A stretch of DNA of 60,180 bases from a virus. Positions 21,985 to 49,740 of this stretch are shown piece after piece. Position numbers and translations under genes: made by a program. How positions within the stretch are numbered: the first letter of the stretch is position 1; each line of letters begins with the position of its first letter. The notes beneath the pieces are model-generated. The model was given only the letters and a program-made list of their open reading frames with translations. It was not told the DNA's origin and searched no databases. Location of the stretch: IMG/VR virus record IMGVR_UViG_3300046005_001206, positions 1-60,180 of that record, one strand, 5' to 3'.

Positions 21985-22059
21985 GTCGGTGAGGGAAAAC
22001 GGTAATCCGCAGGTCTCCAAAACCTTGAGAAGTAGGTTCAATTCCTACCACCTTCGCCA
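21985..22059 (+). tRNA. tRNA-Trp (CCA), imperfect acceptor stem
   Basis: Anticodon loop CTCCAAA, perfect T-arm GTAGG TTCAATT CCTAC, discriminator G typical of Trp, CCA encoded. The acceptor stem GTCGGTG/CACCTTC has T-T and C-T mismatches at the second and third pairs, and the first anticodon-stem pair is also C-T. Confidence 0.75.
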
Positions 22060-32142: not shown

Positions 32143-33213
32143 ATGTCTGACCTATTAAATAAATTGCGTAAGAATACCACAATCAAGGATTCAGATATTC
32201 TGTCTGATTCGAAGTTCTTCAATGCCAAGGATATGGTGGCAACAACTGTTCCAGCAATCAATATTGCATTGAGTGGTAAGATCAACGGTGGCTTCGTTCC
32301 TGGTTTGACTATTTGGGCAGGTCCATCGAAGCACTTCAAGACATCTTTTAGTCTTCTGATGGCAAAGGCATACATGGACAAGTATTCAGACGCAGTCATG
32401 CTTTTCTATGACTCAGAGTTTGGTACTCCTCAATCTTACTTCGACTCGTTCGGCATCGACACAACCCGAGTTCTCCATACTCCCATCACCGATGTCGAAC
32501 AGTTGAAGTTTGATATTATGCATCAGTTCGAAGAGATCAAGCGCGGTGATCATGTCATCATCGTAATCGACTCTGTTGGTAACCTTGCATCGAAGAAAGA
32601 AGTTGAGGATGCGCTCAAGCAGAACTCAGCAGCCGATATGACTCGCGCAAAGCAACTGAAGTCATTGTTCCGCATGGTCACACCTCACCTCAATCTCAAA
32701 GACATTCCACTAGTCGTGGTCAATCACACCTACCAGACTCAAGAGATGTACTCGAAGGCTGTGGTTTCTGGTGGTACAGGCATCTATTACTCAGCTGATA
32801 ACATCTTCATCATCGGTCGTCAGCAAGAAAAAGACGGCAAGGATGTGACTGGTTATAACTTCATCATCAACGTCGAGAAGAGCCGATTCGTGAAGGAGAA
32901 GTCGAAGATTCCTATCGAAGTATCATGGGATAAAGGAATCAGCAAATGGTCTGGTCTTCTCGACATGGCTCTCGAGTCTGGTCACGTCATCAAGCCAAAG
33001 GTTGGTTGGTTTCAGCGCGTGGACATGGAGACAGGTGAGATCCTTGAGAAGAGCTATCGTATGGCTGATACATACGAGTTCGGTTTCTGGCATCCAATCC
33101 TTATATGCCCTAAATTCAATGAGTTCATTGAAAAGAAGTATGCTGCATCGAATGGCGCCATTATGCAAGAAGAAGATGAAGTCGCAGCGGTCTATGAGAT
33201 GGAGGATGAATGA
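32143..33213 (+). CDS. uvsX: UvsX recombinase (RecA-like)
   Basis: 356 residues. Walker A is GPSKHFKTSF, a form typical of UvsX; HVIIVIDSVGNLASKKE carries Walker B; VVVNHTYQTQEMY and VVSGGTGIYYSADNI are the DNA-binding loops. Acidic C-terminus (QEEDEVAAVYEMEDE). It catalyses strand exchange together with UvsY at 143. ATGA overlap with gp41. Confidence 0.96.
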   Translation: MSDLLNKLRKNTTIKDSDILSDSKFFNAKDMVATTVPAINIALSGKINGGFVPGLTIWAGPSKHFKTSFSLLMAKAYMDKYSDAVMLFYDSEFGTPQSYFDSFGIDTTRVLHTPITDVEQLKFDIMHQFEEIKRGDHVIIVIDSVGNLASKKEVEDALKQNSAADMTRAKQLKSLFRMVTPHLNLKDIPLVVVNHTYQTQEMYSKAVVSGGTGIYYSADNIFIIGRQQEKDGKDVTGYNFIINVEKSRFVKEKSKIPIEVSWDKGISKWSGLLDMALESGHVIKPKVGWFQRVDMETGEILEKSYRMADTYEFGFWHPILICPKFNEFIEKKYAASNGAIMQEEDEVAAVYEMEDE

Positions 33214-34625
33214 GAATTGAACACATCATATTTGGAAATCTTATTGAAAACGAGGAGTACGGTCGGAAAGTTATTCCATTCCTGAAGGAAGAATACTTTA
33301 CTGACACCGTAGATCGTAAGATCTTCTCTATCATTCATGACTATGTGGGGAAGTATAACAACTTTCCTACAAAATCTGCTGTCGAGATCGATCTGAATGA
33401 TGTCGGAGGTCTGTCTGACGATCAGTTCAAGACTGCCAAAGAAGTTGTCTCTGGCCTTGACAAGTCTGAAGATCGTGATGTGGCATGGCTTGTAGATAAT
33501 ACCGAGAAGTTTTGTAAAGACAAGGCACTGTATAATGCTCTGATGCAATCGATTCAGATCGTCGACGATAGTAAGAAAGATAGCATATCAGTTGGATCTA
33601 TTCCTCAGATCTTGACTGATGCACTCGGTGTTTCTTTCGATAGCCATATCGGTCATGATTTCTTAAATGATGCACCAGAACGTTATGAGTTCTATCATCG
33701 CAAGGAAGTTCGCATTGGTTTCGATATTGATTACTTTAACAAGATTACTCAAGGCGGTCTCCCTCGCAAGACTCTGAACATTGCTCTCGCTGGTACTGGT
33801 GTCGGTAAATCTTTGTTCATGTGTCATGGTGCTGCACACAACTTGATGGCAGGTCAGAACGTCTTGTATATCACTTTGGAAATGGCAGAAGAAAGAATCG
33901 CCGAGCGCATCGATGCCAATCTTCTTGGTGTGACGCTTACCGATCTCAAAGATCTGCCACAAGCTATCTACTATAAGTTGATCGGAAAAGTCAAAGAACG
34001 AGCAAAAGGTAAGCTCATTGTAAAGGAGTATCCAACAGCATGCGCAGGCGCCGCAAACTTTCGACATCTCTTGAACGAATTGAAGATCAAGAAGAACTTT
34101 ATTCCAGACATTATCTACATCGATTATCTGAACATTTGTGCGTCGTCGAGGATCAAACCGGGATCGAACGTAAACTCGTACACCTACATCAAGGCGATCG
34201 CCGAAGAGCTAAGAGGTCTGGCCGTCGAGTTCAACGTTCCGATAGTTTCTGCTACTCAGACTAATCGTTCTGGTTTTAGTAACTCTGATGTCGGCCTCGA
34301 AGATACTTCTGAATCGTTTGGTCTACCAGCAACAGCCGATTTTATGTTTGCCTTAATTACGAGCGAAGAGCTACGGCAGCTCAATCAGATCATGGTCAAG
34401 CAATTGAAGAATCGTTACGGCGATCCTTCAGTGCACAAGCGATTCGTGATTGGTGTTGACTACTCGAAGATGCGTCTGTATAATGTAGAGGCTTCAGCTC
34501 AAGTCGATGTTGTACAAGATGAAGATCGACCAGTCTTCGACAACTCCGCCTCTGGTTATCGAATGGAAAATGAATCGAAACCTGTCAGTAAATTTGAGAA
34601 AATTAAATTTGCAGGATTCAAATGA
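33210..34625 (+). CDS. 41: Replicative DNA helicase gp41 (DnaB-like)
   Basis: 471 residues, near T4 gp41 (475). Walker A is LAGTGVGKSLFMCH, Walker B DIIYIDYLNICASS, then the H4-like VSATQTNRSGF and arginine finger region LKNRYGDP. It unwinds the lagging-strand template and stimulates gp61 primase (54208). Confidence 0.95.
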   Translation: MRIEHIIFGNLIENEEYGRKVIPFLKEEYFTDTVDRKIFSIIHDYVGKYNNFPTKSAVEIDLNDVGGLSDDQFKTAKEVVSGLDKSEDRDVAWLVDNTEKFCKDKALYNALMQSIQIVDDSKKDSISVGSIPQILTDALGVSFDSHIGHDFLNDAPERYEFYHRKEVRIGFDIDYFNKITQGGLPRKTLNIALAGTGVGKSLFMCHGAAHNLMAGQNVLYITLEMAEERIAERIDANLLGVTLTDLKDLPQAIYYKLIGKVKERAKGKLIVKEYPTACAGAANFRHLLNELKIKKNFIPDIIYIDYLNICASSRIKPGSNVNSYTYIKAIAEELRGLAVEFNVPIVSATQTNRSGFSNSDVGLEDTSESFGLPATADFMFALITSEELRQLNQIMVKQLKNRYGDPSVHKRFVIGVDYSKMRLYNVEASAQVDVVQDEDRPVFDNSASGYRMENESKPVSKFEKIKFAGFK

Positions 34626-34804
34626 TTGGCAATCTGAGACAAGATTGGATAATCAATACCGTTAAAAATCCAAGGTACACTTGGAAATGTAAGGTATTGA
34701 AAAATGTGACGTGGATGGTTGAAGAAGGCAATGAGCCTAATTGGTTTCATCGCAAAATGCAAGAGCTTTGTTTTGGTTTTAAATGGGAGAAGATTGATGG
34801 TTAA
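34622..34804 (+). CDS. Small basic protein after gp41
   Basis: 60 residues, Trp-rich and basic (NPRYTWKCKVLKNVTWM, WFHRKMQELCFGFKWEK). ATGA overlap with gp41 and overlap with the next gene. No family recognised. Confidence 0.65.
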   Translation: MIGNLRQDWIINTVKNPRYTWKCKVLKNVTWMVEEGNEPNWFHRKMQELCFGFKWEKIDG

Positions 34805-35030
34805 CTATAAGATCGTAAATACTGGAAAAATCGTCGATGTTGGCGGAGGGTTTGGAGAAATGGCCGCTGATATCGTTGAGACAAAGACGGATCAGATTGT
34901 AATCAAGAGTGTGTGTATGGCAAAAGCCAAGGAAATGGTTCGCCATCTGAACTTTGGCGGTGGCTTTGACGGATCGACTCCAGCATTTTTTTTAGCCGAA
35001 CGTGAAAAAACTTTAGAATTAACTGAATAA
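34797..35030 (+). CDS. Small hypothetical protein
   Basis: 77 residues, MVNYKIVNTGKIVDVGGGFG..., ending in an acidic stretch. It starts within the last codons of the previous gene (8-nt overlap), with GGGAGAAG upstream. GGGFGE and NFGGGFDG glycine turns; no function known. Confidence 0.65.
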   Translation: MVNYKIVNTGKIVDVGGGFGEMAADIVETKTDQIVIKSVCMAKAKEMVRHLNFGGGFDGSTPAFFLAEREKTLELTE

Positions 35031-35034
35031 CTTG

Positions 35035-35042
35035 TATAAATA
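35035..35042 (+). promoter_or_regulatory. T4-type late promoter box TATAAATA
   Basis: Exact TATAAATA immediately upstream of the structured RNA; the predicted start is near 35048. A TGTACA (35045) with TATACA 16 nt later (35067) lies just downstream, so either class could drive the RNA. Confidence 0.6.
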
Positions 35043-35047
35043 GATGT

Positions 35048-35187
35048 ACACTATGTGGTGCGTGGATATACAGTTTTAACTGTGTAAGAGGCAAGTGTCT
35101 TAATTGACGACTGGAATAGGCAGGATCACAGGTGGGGTTCCTCCTGCTACACGCATGATGGGCGACTTTCGGGTCGCCCATTTTTTT
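35048..35187 (+). ncRNA. Cloverleaf-like non-coding RNA with own terminator
   Basis: No ORF covers 35031-35261. A TGCGTG/CACGCA stem (35059-35064 with 35150-35155) encloses three hairpins: ACAGTT/AACTGT (35070-35083), TAAGA/TCTTA (35085-35102) and GCAGGA/TCCTGC (35120-35147). An intrinsic terminator follows. A promoter of one or both phage classes precedes it. The predicted product is about 140 nt; function unknown. Confidence 0.65.
35160..35187 (+). terminator. Intrinsic terminator of the 35-kb RNA
   Basis: GGGCGAC-TTTCGG-GTCGCCC followed by A and seven T residues. Confidence 0.9.
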
Positions 35188-35207: not shown

Positions 35208-35236
35208 TGTACATTTTATCAAAACTTTAGTAGTAT
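35208..35236 (+). promoter_or_regulatory. TGTACA-class promoter
   Basis: AATAAGCATGTACATTTTAT context, TAGTAT -10, leader family B; precedes 35262. Confidence 0.8.
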
Positions 35237-44536: not shown

Positions 44537-46609
44537 ATGGAAGATAAGAATAAAAAACCGGTTGATACGAAGCAGTTAAAAAAGCCAACCGGCACGTCTG
44601 TAACTGGCAAACCACTTGATAGTATCGAGATCCGTCCTCAGCTTAAGGGTCTCGGAAATCGCCAGCATAACGAGGATACCGTAGTCCTAACTGACACCTT
44701 AGCTGAGAAAAAAGCGTTGACACTCGTTCAGCGCCAACGCAGAGCTCGCATCTTAAGAGCAAAAGAGCCAAAGATGCAGAGAGCGAAAGAAGTCGCACAA
44801 CACAAGCTTGCCTCAGAAGATAAGCTGAAGGCTCGAGCAATCAACAAAGCAAGAAACATTGTCAAGATGAGGTTTGCAGCTCGTAAGGGAACTCCTTATA
44901 CCGAGCTTACCACATCTGAAAAAATTCAAGTGGATAAAGTAGTCGATAAGAAAGTCGCGCTAATTCGAAAATTAGCTGCGCGGCTTTTACCTTCGCTTCG
45001 TAAAGCGGAAGTCAATCGTTTAGCTTCATTCCAATCTGGAGCAAAGCTACAGCATGCGACTGCTGGACCAGTCAACGAAGAATTCAATAACATCGTCGAA
45101 AGTCTTGACAGTAAGACTTCGATGCAGCTCGTCGACATCATTAATGATTCGATTGATGCTCTTAACGAGAACAATAACACAATGGGTATTACGCTGAAGA
45201 GACTGCTTAATGCAGTTCTTCCAGAAGATGCCGCAACCTCTACTCTTATTCAAAAAGCCGAAAGAACCGGCATACCGTTCTCGACCCTTAGAGAGGTGTT
45301 CGAGCGCGGTTCTTTTGCGTGGGAAAATGACGGCAAAGCTACACAAGAACAATTCTCTTTTGCAAGAGTGAATAGCTATATTGCCAAAGGCAGAGCGTGG
45401 ACACTCGATGCAGATCTTCGCGAAGAGAAACTTATCAACGATAAGCTTGATAATGTCTTCGAAGCCTATCATACTGGTTTAAGCCCATCAACTGCCAAGA
45501 AGCGTGAAGCTCACTGGAAGAAGATGGAAAAGTATTCTGATAAAGATGATCGTGCATATCAAGATGCTCCTGGAGACAAAGAAGCTCGTAAGAAACCGAT
45601 GCCACAATCTGTACATACGAAGAAATATCATGCCATGTACGGTGCTAACGAGGATTATAGTGCATCTGATATGCACGAAGATCCTGTCAACGAAAGTCTA
45701 TGGGCTAATATTCATGCCAAGCGCAAAAGAATTGCAGCTGGATCTGGCGAACGTATGCGTAAGCCTGGATCGAAAGGTGCTCCAACACAAGCTGGATTAA
45801 AGTCAGCTCAAGAAGCAGTCGAAGATCAAGTAGGCAATAAGATCGCTGATACGGCAAGACACGGTAAAGTAAGATATGGCGGCGTAAGAACTGCAGATCA
45901 TAAAGAAACTGCTACTCAAGAACGTCAAGAAGTTCAGTACGTTAAGCGCCATAAGATGCACACGAAAAGAGAGACTGACGCTGATCCGCAACAGATTCGT
46001 ATCGCTCAAGATCAGATCAAAAAGAAAGTGATCGACGAATCCAACAATACACCGTATGTAAAAGCCTTTAAAGAAAAAGGCAGCACTGAACAACGCGGTT
46101 GGAAAGCTTCGAACAAACATGGCAAGGTAAAATACTTTGGTTTAAAGTTCAAAGATTCTGCACATAAGCATGCAGGAATCAATGAAGCTGCCGACAAGCA
46201 TCCGATTGTAAAAGAATATGACTCATTAAAAAAGCACGATATTAAAACTCTTCGTAGTATGATTGCACAGAGCGGCGGAGTTGTTGATACCTCTGGTTTT
46301 AAATCTAAAGATCACGCGGCATCACACATTATTCGTTCAAAGCACGGCAATAAAAAAGTAGATGCGGCATTTGGATTTAACGAAGATACTTCTGCAGATC
46401 GTGAAGTCGGTACTAAATCACTTGTCAAGAAGTATCAGAAAGAAACGCCTGGTCAAGAAAAAGCAGATGTCAACGAAATGTTTAATACAACTTTCGACGA
46501 AGATATCGAGCGCAGATCAGATTTTCGAATGATCAAATTTCGTACTCCAAAAGGATGGGTTTGGAGAAAAGTTCGGAAAGAAGTAGATGTTGAGAGAGAT
46601 GCCGAATGA
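44537..46609 (+). CDS. Large basic late protein, likely virion-associated
   Basis: 690 residues, highly charged, Lys/Arg-rich, mostly helical and low in hydrophobics. A segment TGIPFSTLREVFERGSFAWEN with FSFARVNSYIAKGRAWTLDADL matches a motif in the protein at 47368 (compare DUF5824-like proteins). Two internal TxKYHAMYG and RAYQDAPGDKEARKK segments also recur in marine phages. Function unknown; DNA condensation in the head is possible. Confidence 0.7.
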   Translation: MEDKNKKPVDTKQLKKPTGTSVTGKPLDSIEIRPQLKGLGNRQHNEDTVVLTDTLAEKKALTLVQRQRRARILRAKEPKMQRAKEVAQHKLASEDKLKARAINKARNIVKMRFAARKGTPYTELTTSEKIQVDKVVDKKVALIRKLAARLLPSLRKAEVNRLASFQSGAKLQHATAGPVNEEFNNIVESLDSKTSMQLVDIINDSIDALNENNNTMGITLKRLLNAVLPEDAATSTLIQKAERTGIPFSTLREVFERGSFAWENDGKATQEQFSFARVNSYIAKGRAWTLDADLREEKLINDKLDNVFEAYHTGLSPSTAKKREAHWKKMEKYSDKDDRAYQDAPGDKEARKKPMPQSVHTKKYHAMYGANEDYSASDMHEDPVNESLWANIHAKRKRIAAGSGERMRKPGSKGAPTQAGLKSAQEAVEDQVGNKIADTARHGKVRYGGVRTADHKETATQERQEVQYVKRHKMHTKRETDADPQQIRIAQDQIKKKVIDESNNTPYVKAFKEKGSTEQRGWKASNKHGKVKYFGLKFKDSAHKHAGINEAADKHPIVKEYDSLKKHDIKTLRSMIAQSGGVVDTSGFKSKDHAASHIIRSKHGNKKVDAAFGFNEDTSADREVGTKSLVKKYQKETPGQEKADVNEMFNTTFDEDIERRSDFRMIKFRTPKGWVWRKVRKEVDVERDAE

Positions 46610-47367: not shown

Positions 47368-49740
47368 ATGTTAACGAATAAAATCACAGGATTTAGTGCT
47401 GATCTTCTTAATACAGTTCGCGGTATTCTTGGAGAAGCGAAGAAGTGCCCATCAGATTGTGAATGCGAAAAGTGCGAAGCAGAAGAGATGAAAGAAGGCT
47501 CGATGCCGACTGTCGACGAACCGACTGATGCAAACAAGAAAACTGCAGACAAAGTTCGCGCGATGATGGCCAAAGAAAAGAAATTAAAAGAAGACATCAT
47601 GGAAATGGTGGAAGAAGCTTCAAGCGGTCTTGCCGATAAAGCAAAGAAATCTGGTGTATCTTTGTCTACCTTGAAAAAAGTATATGCTCGCGGTATTGCT
47701 GCTTGGAATAGTGGCCATCGTCCAGGTACAACTCCACAACAGTGGGCACATGCTCGTGTCAATTCATACATCACGAAGGGCAAAGGCACATATCATGGTG
47801 CTGACAAAGATCTTCGTAGCGAAGGCACTGATATGCCTTTTGATCCGCCGTATAGCAAACCCGGTGAACGCAAAGACGCATACGGCAATAAAGTAAAGAA
47901 TGTTGCTAAGTATCTTGCGAAGAAAGCAATGAACGATCTTGCTAAGAAGAATGAAGAAGCTGAGCATAACAATTGCGGAACTCCTGAATGTTGCGGACAG
48001 TGCGATACGCCTGGACAGATCGATGAGATTTCTGCAAAGACTGCAGTAAATGCTTATGCCAAGCGTAATGCCAAAGCATTCAACGACGGTCAATACGATG
48101 ATGAAGCTGAAAAAGACTATAACAAGTTAGACAAACAAGGTGATAGAATTCAAAGAAAGTTTGGTGACAAAACTGTTCGTAAAGCACAGAGTGCCGCTTA
48201 TAAGAAGATCTTTGGAGAAGAAGTCGAAAATCTCGATGAAACTGCAAAGATCGTTGCTCATCTTCAAAAGCGTTACGGAGACAATATTCGCAAGAGCCAT
48301 GTTCGCTCAGCAGCTAGCGATTTCGGTGTCGATGCATCAAAGTTAGCGAAAGCAGTACGTACTAAGTTGGGCAAGAATATGCTTGATGAAGAGGATGATG
48401 GCTGGTATACCCATTCTCAGATGCACGGTTCAAAGAAAAGTGAAAAGCACCCAAAGGGTATTTCGGCTGATGAATGGAAATCTGGCATTAGATGGCATCA
48501 TGGTAAGAATAAAAGAATTAATATTAAAGAAGAAGTCGAGCAGATTGATGAGTTGAGTGATACGTATTCAGCTCCTGCTAGAGTTCCACAAAAGATGATT
48601 AAGCCTGAAGCAGCTCGTAGAATGGCTAATACTGCTAATAGAAAAAACATGTCCGACAAGGATATTGAAACCGTTCTATTCAATCAGGGACACGGTCGCA
48701 AGTCGTTGAAACTAATTAATCAACTTCGTAAGGAAGAAGCTGAAGATCTTGATGAAACATCTGCAAAGAAAGCAATGGATTACCTAAGTAAATCGTTTGC
48801 ACCTAGAGAAACAGCTGTAGAACGTTCAGCTAGAGCTACTCGGTATAATCCTGGTGATCGAAAGGAAGCTGGTAGACTCCTAGGTAATAAAATGAAGGGA
48901 GCCGAAAGAGCTGGAAAGATCATCAGTAAGTCATTTACTGTTAAAGAAGAAGCCGAGCAGGTCGATGAACTTTCAAAGAAACCCGGGGGAATCTTAGACA
49001 CATATCAACAGCGTGGCACTTTTAAAGGTGACAAGAACCGGGATGCTGGTAGAAAGCTTGCAACTAAAAAATTGAATCCTGGCAAATATGGAATGGAAGC
49101 ACCTAAGGTAGCAGCTACCAATGAAGAAGCCGAACAGATTGATGAACTTTCAAAGGGAACACTGGGTCGTTATATTAATAAGGCGGCAGATCGCATGAGT
49201 ACACAAGGTGTGACTGCTGGTCTGAAGATTGCTGCCGATGAAAAATCAAAGAAAAACTTTGACACTATCGCAAAGCGTCAAAAAGGTATTGCGACTGCAG
49301 TTAGCAAGCTGACCAAGGAAGAGCAAGACTTTGTTGATTCGCTGAACGATGAGACATTCGAAGAAGTAGAAATCACCGAAGCGCGCGGTCGCCCAAGAAA
49401 GGCTGGTGCCAAGGATTTCACGATTCATCCGAAGACAAAAGAAAAGCTCATGCACAACAATCCTGCACATATGAAGACTATCGAAATTCTTCAGAAAAAC
49501 GGTATTCTTGAGAAGCCAAAGGTTGAAGCTGGTCAGCACATCATGAATCAGTTGTCGAAGGCAAAGACATCGATGTTAGGTGGATCTAAGATCAACTTTA
49601 CACATGGCGATTCGAAAGAAGTTTCAGGAACACATGCAGCAAAGATCTTGACGAAGTATGCTGGCATGAAGCCGAACGAGAAAGAAGACTTTCAGAAGTT
49701 TGTAGGTCACTCTCATGAAAACCTGATGAAACACGTATAG
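47368..49740 (+). CDS. Large repetitive late protein
   Basis: 790 residues. KKSGVSLSTLKKVYARGIAAW with WAHARVNSYITKGKG matches the 44537 protein. An acidic motif EEAEQ(I/V)DELS or close variant recurs about six times (for example EEVEQIDELSD, EEAEDLDETSA, EEAEQVDELSK, EEAEQIDELSK), each followed by a different basic helical segment of 40-100 residues. Such spacing suggests processing sites. An early CxxxCxCxxC (CPSDCECEKC) may bind metal. GGAGCAAAAA precedes the ATG. Confidence 0.75.
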   Translation: MLTNKITGFSADLLNTVRGILGEAKKCPSDCECEKCEAEEMKEGSMPTVDEPTDANKKTADKVRAMMAKEKKLKEDIMEMVEEASSGLADKAKKSGVSLSTLKKVYARGIAAWNSGHRPGTTPQQWAHARVNSYITKGKGTYHGADKDLRSEGTDMPFDPPYSKPGERKDAYGNKVKNVAKYLAKKAMNDLAKKNEEAEHNNCGTPECCGQCDTPGQIDEISAKTAVNAYAKRNAKAFNDGQYDDEAEKDYNKLDKQGDRIQRKFGDKTVRKAQSAAYKKIFGEEVENLDETAKIVAHLQKRYGDNIRKSHVRSAASDFGVDASKLAKAVRTKLGKNMLDEEDDGWYTHSQMHGSKKSEKHPKGISADEWKSGIRWHHGKNKRINIKEEVEQIDELSDTYSAPARVPQKMIKPEAARRMANTANRKNMSDKDIETVLFNQGHGRKSLKLINQLRKEEAEDLDETSAKKAMDYLSKSFAPRETAVERSARATRYNPGDRKEAGRLLGNKMKGAERAGKIISKSFTVKEEAEQVDELSKKPGGILDTYQQRGTFKGDKNRDAGRKLATKKLNPGKYGMEAPKVAATNEEAEQIDELSKGTLGRYINKAADRMSTQGVTAGLKIAADEKSKKNFDTIAKRQKGIATAVSKLTKEEQDFVDSLNDETFEEVEITEARGRPRKAGAKDFTIHPKTKEKLMHNNPAHMKTIEILQKNGILEKPKVEAGQHIMNQLSKAKTSMLGGSKINFTHGDSKEVSGTHAAKILTKYAGMKPNEKEDFQKFVGHSHENLMKHV

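Follow-up and report, generated by a model that had tools for sequence, protein, structure and literature searches.

What does the gene-free gap behind the helicase gene of an uncultured T4-like virus encode? The window, by which we mean the whole stretch of DNA that was analysed, is IMG/VR virus record IMGVR_UViG_3300046005_001206 (60,180 bases), which carries the T4-type replication genes uvsX (32143-33213) and gp41 helicase (33210-34625). Farther along the window, two large proteins (44537-46606 and 47368-49737) each contain a DUF5824 domain. Downstream of gp41 lie a 60-aa ORF and then a small conserved ORF with its stop at 35030, and the gap extends from there to the next ORF start at 35235 or 35262. 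A preliminary description had placed a late promoter box, a closing stem, three hairpins and a terminator within 35035-35187, and both its coordinates and its list of features proved correct: the 7-bp closing stem pairs 35058-35064 with 35150-35156, and the terminator is an 11-bp stem followed by T7. The elements of the locus are as follows.

34797 to 35030, + strand: small conserved ORF of 77 aa with the motif RHLNxGGGFDGxTPxFFL (weakly phrog_29065), which adjoins the RNA upstream
35035 to 35042, + strand: T4-type late promoter box TATAAATA, with a box in 77/77 testable homologous loci
35048 to 35187, + strand: predicted primary transcript of about 140 nt, from sequence, fold and covariance model match
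35048 to 35057, + strand: 5' leader ACACUAUGUG, possibly a short 5' hairpin (weak evidence)
35058 to 35064, + strand: P1 closing stem, 5' strand GUGCGUG, which pairs with 35150-35156
35067 to 35086, + strand: hairpin P2, UAUACAG-UUUUAA-CUGUGUA, which covaries and includes TATACA
35087 to 35093, + strand: junction segment AGAGGCA, with the near-invariant GGCA
35094 to 35112, + strand: hairpin P3, AGU-GUC-UUAAUU-GAC-g-ACU, with covariation for the inner pairs
35113 to 35119, + strand: junction segment GGAAUAG, whose final G begins P4
35119 to 35148, + strand: P4, with outer stem GGCAGG/CCUGCU, inner stem AGG/CCU and apical loop UGGGGUU
35150 to 35156, + strand: P1 closing stem, 3' strand CACGCAU, partner of 35058-35064
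35157 to 35187, + strand: intrinsic terminator with an 11-bp stem, a 4-nt loop and a T tract

In this arrangement, P1 (7 bp) closes a four-way junction with hairpins P2, P3 and P4, and three unpaired segments, GGCA, GGAAUAG and UGGGGUU, are nearly invariant. The transcript end was placed by the T tract and its start by T4 late-promoter geometry: the T4 late box is centred near -10, so transcription would begin a few bases upstream of P1. Folding by itself suggests an RNA. However, for the RNA stretch of this virus, z is -3.4 when the terminator is included and -1.5 when it is left out, and on these values one sequence is insufficient as proof of an RNA.

Homologues were therefore collected from viral contigs. 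An exact 17-mer from the 5' part of the RNA occurs in 43 of them, the core pattern GGAATAG-N-GGTGGGGTTCCTCC in 109 contigs and its variant with CGGTGGGGTTCCG in 111; since the GGTGGGGTTCCTCC and CGGTGGGGTTCCG patterns are mutually exclusive at one site, about 220 IMG/VR contigs contain the core. The same RNA appears in loci fetched solely via gp41 or via the small ORF, which makes the finding independent of the patterns. Covariance models built from 13 sequences (R1) and then from 78 sequences (R2) recover these loci. The members fall into 86 clusters at 90% identity, and each large contig has exactly one strong copy (18/18); in the window, the sole match is 35047-35157, with 93.5 bits. Beyond these contigs, model R2 found no RNA among 27 named phage records, including T4, KVP40, HTVC008M, Melnitz, DLP6, phiM12, phiW-14 and cyanophages such as S-PM2, with 18 of the 27 scanned under stricter filters that lose weak matches. 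Nothing convincing emerged when the locus and five RNA variants of differing divergence were compared by blastn with 50,697 phage records, in which the Vibrio phage matches were short pieces within a gene. Across 84,980 bacterial and archaeal genomes, the core pattern is present in three stretches, which is chance level, and two of these are without a covariance model match. Model matches in P-SSM2, AG-345-F15, S-SRM01, S-B68 and an Ochrobactrum phage were weak (E 0.06-1.8) and unconvincing. One locus outside the RNA-bearing clade (L056:7344-7462; 17 bits) has a loop around AGGGGUUU and is a possible very divergent member, which, if true, would extend the family past the clade.

The preliminary description had proposed covariance modelling as a check, and across 45-78 homologues the pairs co-vary far above shuffled and slid controls. 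In the 78-sequence alignment, 93.6% of cells pair and 28/29 pairs show changes on both sides, with 606 cells of such double change compared with 171 in shuffles and a covariation score of 0.698 compared with at most 0.122 for slid controls. Because this alignment is fitted to the model and includes pattern-fetched loci, the analysis was repeated on the window together with 45 loci that had been retrieved through neighbouring proteins and hence not chosen for the RNA. In this set, 94.4% of cells are paired, both sides change in 28/29 pairs, double-change cells number 248 against 52 in shuffles, and the covariation score is 0.603, with slid structures reaching at most 0.165. From the 45-locus alignment, which was model-made and so leans towards the model's structure, RNAalifold's own prediction returned 25 pairs in the same helices, 24 of them with double changes.

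The helices differ in how firmly they are supported. In P1, 97% of cells are paired and all seven pairs show changes on both sides, as do all seven pairs of P2 (93-96% of cells paired) and all six of the P4 outer stem, which is 100% paired. Beyond this 6-bp outer stem, P4 has an internal loop on one side, with an extra hairpin in some clades, a short inner stem whose closing pair is A-U, C-G or U-A across members, and the 7-nt apical loop UGGGGUU at 35133-35139. The inner three pairs of P3 are well supported; the outer three, kept mainly in the window's clade, are the weakest element of the structure. The possible leader hairpin occurs in the variants CAC-UAU-GUG, CACA-AUA-UGUG and CCACA-CU-AUGUGG. 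Among the unpaired segments of the 78 sequences, GGCA is conserved in at least 99%, and within GGAAUAG, GGAA is conserved in 100% and UAG in 94-97%. Loop conservation is partly a selection effect in pattern-fetched loci, and the UGGGGUU loop is also present in protein-fetched loci, with rare variants (L022, possibly L056). Pairs of G and U are frequent on the + strand (the first pair of P4 is GC in 63 sequences, GU in 13, AU in 2 and unpaired in none), which fits an RNA of the + strand.

This pattern bears on whether the locus could be a DNA-level element, such as a replication origin or a recombination or packaging site, mistaken for an RNA: although the site lies in a replication module and is made of inverted repeats, G-U pairs are kept on one strand only, several helices carry double changes, and promoter and terminator stand in constant order, so that this reading is barely credible.

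A late box (TATAAATA, NATAAATA or CTAAATA) lies directly upstream of the RNA in 77/77 testable representatives, compared with 1.9% of random windows, and a hairpin with a T run lies downstream in 74/74 representatives with enough sequence. The gap from box to P1 is 15 nt in 21/22 close relatives and mostly 9-10 nt in other members; terminator stem sequences differ even between close relatives. Within the window, TATAAATA has 10 exact copies, all on the + strand, compared with 2.8 expected. The locus has the NATAAATA box near the predicted start that characterizes a T4-type late transcription unit, with CTAAATA in its place in some members; for S-PM2, the late consensus has been reported as NATAAATA (PMC2984593). 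A late box is by itself no proof of late transcription.

It had also been suggested that TGTACA (35045-35050) and TATACA (35067-35072) form a second promoter, which would place the RNA under dual early and late control. The letters are there; as a conserved promoter they do not hold up, the pair being kept in 10/29 of the closest variants. They fail a sigma-70 scan, and TATACA is part of the 5' strand of the co-varying P2. Dual control is therefore unsupported, because the putative early promoter is not kept and half of it co-varies as a helix strand, whereas the late box is universal. Elsewhere in the window, CATGTACATTTTATCAAAACTTTGGTA occurs in six near-identical + strand copies (25302, 35206, 35543, 35820, 36184 and 41866), with none expected by chance; several directly precede small ORFs. 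With TGTACA, about 17 nt and a TATAAT-like element, these repeats appear to be early promoters of the phage.

The order uvsX, gp41, small ORF, RNA is retained in nearly all loci. One gp41 clade carries the unit reversed at the equivalent position: the RNA lies on the opposite strand, facing gp41, and retains its fold together with a late box and a terminator of its own. Loci of this inverted clade are L041, L050, L066, L068, L070, L073, L078, L218, L220, L286, L325 and L345, several of which are without the small ORF. The distribution of the RNA on the gp41 tree can be explained by 5 changes, compared with 32 after shuffling, and the inverted copies essentially form a single clade; basal branch supports in this tree are only about 85, and the sampling is non-random, as many loci were collected because they have the RNA. 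Judged by sequence, we conclude that the RNA is inherited vertically at one locus. Cultured cyanophages have mazG or other genes after gp41, and the RNA is absent. The small ORF, for whose family the motif is also written RHLNxGGGFDGWTPxFFL, is present in 86/100 RNA loci and almost always ends just before the RNA. As an obligate partner it was rejected, since it is absent from 14 RNA loci (mostly the inverted clade) and three loci have the ORF without the RNA; it is a constant neighbour, and a partner role is not supported. On the other side of the RNA, the first downstream ORFs belong to 42 families among 120 loci.

A coding function was looked for as a refutation of the RNA, and a conserved reading frame is absent: only 62/159 members contain the start of an ATG ORF with 20 codons or more, which makes a peptide unlikely. 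Helix lengths and loops vary by single bases among members. The preliminary description of a cloverleaf-like non-coding RNA of about 140 nt, with a T4-type late promoter before it and an intrinsic terminator behind it, is thus well supported by the late box (77/77), the terminator (74/74) and the covarying four-way junction P1-P4. Because downstream genes differ, the RNA would be a standalone transcript instead of a riboswitch of a single gene, and the lack of a constant downstream gene together with the inverted copies argues for action in trans. Taken together, we consider it quite likely that the locus is a standalone gene for a structured non-coding RNA of T4-like phages that is late, trans-acting and of a new family. 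The promoter box, structure, terminator, conservation, vertical inheritance at one locus and lack of a conserved frame are features of the sequences themselves, and transcription, late timing and action in trans are what we infer.

Such a unit probably does some job late in infection. Phage replication would switch RNA polymerase to late promoters, and transcription would start about 6 nt past the TATAAATA box and stop at the adjacent terminator. The resulting RNA of about 140 nt would fold into the four-way junction P1-P4, presenting the UGGGGUU loop, GGCA and GGAAUAG, and through loop and junction it would bind one partner in trans during the late phase. That this partner is the translation apparatus or tRNA is a guess. 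Possible targets of the loop (AACCCCA) show no enrichment in the window, with two on the + strand compared with 2.8 expected. An anti-Shine-Dalgarno role for CCUCC in P4 was rejected, since CCGCC replaces these letters in much of the family.

Early synthesis, at the 3' end of the uvsX-gp41 transcript, is also conceivable. In one alternative, the RNA is a 3' end element of this operon, in which structure and terminator would cap and protect early or middle mRNA, and the late box would be incidental. Consistent with this idea, most loci have the RNA and its terminator downstream of gp41 and the small ORF, all on one strand. However, the opposite-strand clade keeps fold, late box and terminator, and these inverted copies make a 3' UTR role unlikely. 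Furthermore, a 3' UTR would not be expected to have a late box at almost constant spacing in 77/77 loci, and the invariant loop and junctions go beyond the needs of a protective hairpin.

Two readings take their cue from the shape of the RNA. The bolder one, a long shot in our estimate, is that the RNA represents a new class carried by a whole uncultivated T4-like clade, whose UGGGGUU would imitate the ribosomal P loop, capture tRNA CCA ends or ribosomes and steer late translation or lysis. The other, to which we give very slightly less credence, is that the RNA is a tRNA mimic or relic that acts on tRNA-handling proteins or the ribosome, with its UGGGG loop likened to the P loop of 23S rRNA, the pairing site of tRNA CCA ends. 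The cloverleaf, the 7-bp closing stem, the 2-nt linker and the 7-nt loop on the last arm fit a tRNA mimic, the weak model matches in KVP40 and in locus L398, which we rejected as members, are tRNA-Leu genes, and GACTGGGGCGGTC is present in E. coli 23S rRNA (sequence checked), where the P loop reads GAC-UGGGGCG-GUC. However, neither ARAGORN nor the Rfam tRNA model calls the RNA, which is without a 3' CCA or a T-loop or D-loop consensus and has long P2 and P4 arms, much longer than those of tRNA. The P-loop likeness spans five letters and was noticed post hoc; it and the cloverleaf likeness are weak leads.

A further alternative is a cis-acting riboswitch or attenuator that controls a downstream gene via the terminator, as an aptamer-like junction directly before an intrinsic terminator might suggest. 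We regard it as most improbable, because the downstream genes change (42 families in 120 loci) and no constant regulated gene exists. Moreover, the terminator stems vary freely and share no strand or sequence with P1, the downstream genes in the window's clade are preceded by their own early promoter-like repeats immediately past the terminator, and the inverted copies point at gp41.

We also asked whether the RNA, read as a standalone gene, belongs to a known kind. On the RNA, no Rfam 15 family reached its gathering threshold, the only such calls being tRNAs elsewhere in the window; weak matches on this stretch were far below threshold and largely driven by the terminator, and four divergent members matched nothing in Rfam 15 up to E = 1. 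Rfam also reports a twelfth tRNA in the window (21985-22056; 44 bits) that is absent from the ARAGORN calls and is possibly degenerate or unusual. The closest likeness in size, timing and obscurity is to T4 RNAC and RNAD (species 1 and 2 RNA; 139 and 119 nt; NC_000866 70908-71171), small structured RNAs classed as late and of unknown function (PMC9697503, PMC3014915), with the timing of the new RNA predicted from its late box. RNAC and RNAD lie in the T4 tRNA cluster, whereas the new RNA lies at 35.05 kb after gp41 and the window's tRNAs at 20.7-22.9 kb. Model R2 had no match in the T4 genome and gave only chance scores in the RNAC/RNAD region with filters off; by these comparisons, the RNAs are not homologous.

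Other phage RNAs are more distant. GOLLD, whose expression rises during lysis (PMC12286853), and ROOL are likewise phage-borne and structured with no known function, but they are several hundred nt long, have other structures, often lie near tRNA islands and gave no Rfam match here. The ncRNAs named for T4-like phages are wcaG, manA, glnA, PhotoRC-II, CfrI and abiF (PMC9964418, PMC2864571, PMC2984593, PMC9602691), and neither Rfam models nor whole-record searches gave any sign of identity with them. Like the new RNA, the first five are structured or antisense RNAs from T4-like phages, in their case marine cyanophages; unlike it, they are cis-regulatory leaders or antisense to psbA, and the new RNA is without an Rfam match and absent from S-PM2. 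No earlier description was found in the openly accessible main texts that the literature search covered. We conclude that the RNA family matches no catalogued one and is in this sense new, and that late phage RNAs of obscure function are already known as a broad kind.

According to a 2010 review of T4 post-transcriptional control, T4 had yet to yield a functionally characterised small RNA acting in trans, and it was hoped that candidates would come from relatives (PMC3014915). The new RNA is such a candidate, with a promoter, a terminator and an invariant core kept through large sequence change and inversion. Phage and RNA biologists thereby gain a defined molecule for probing, and annotators a model by which to recognise a gene now overlooked in hundreds of viral contigs.
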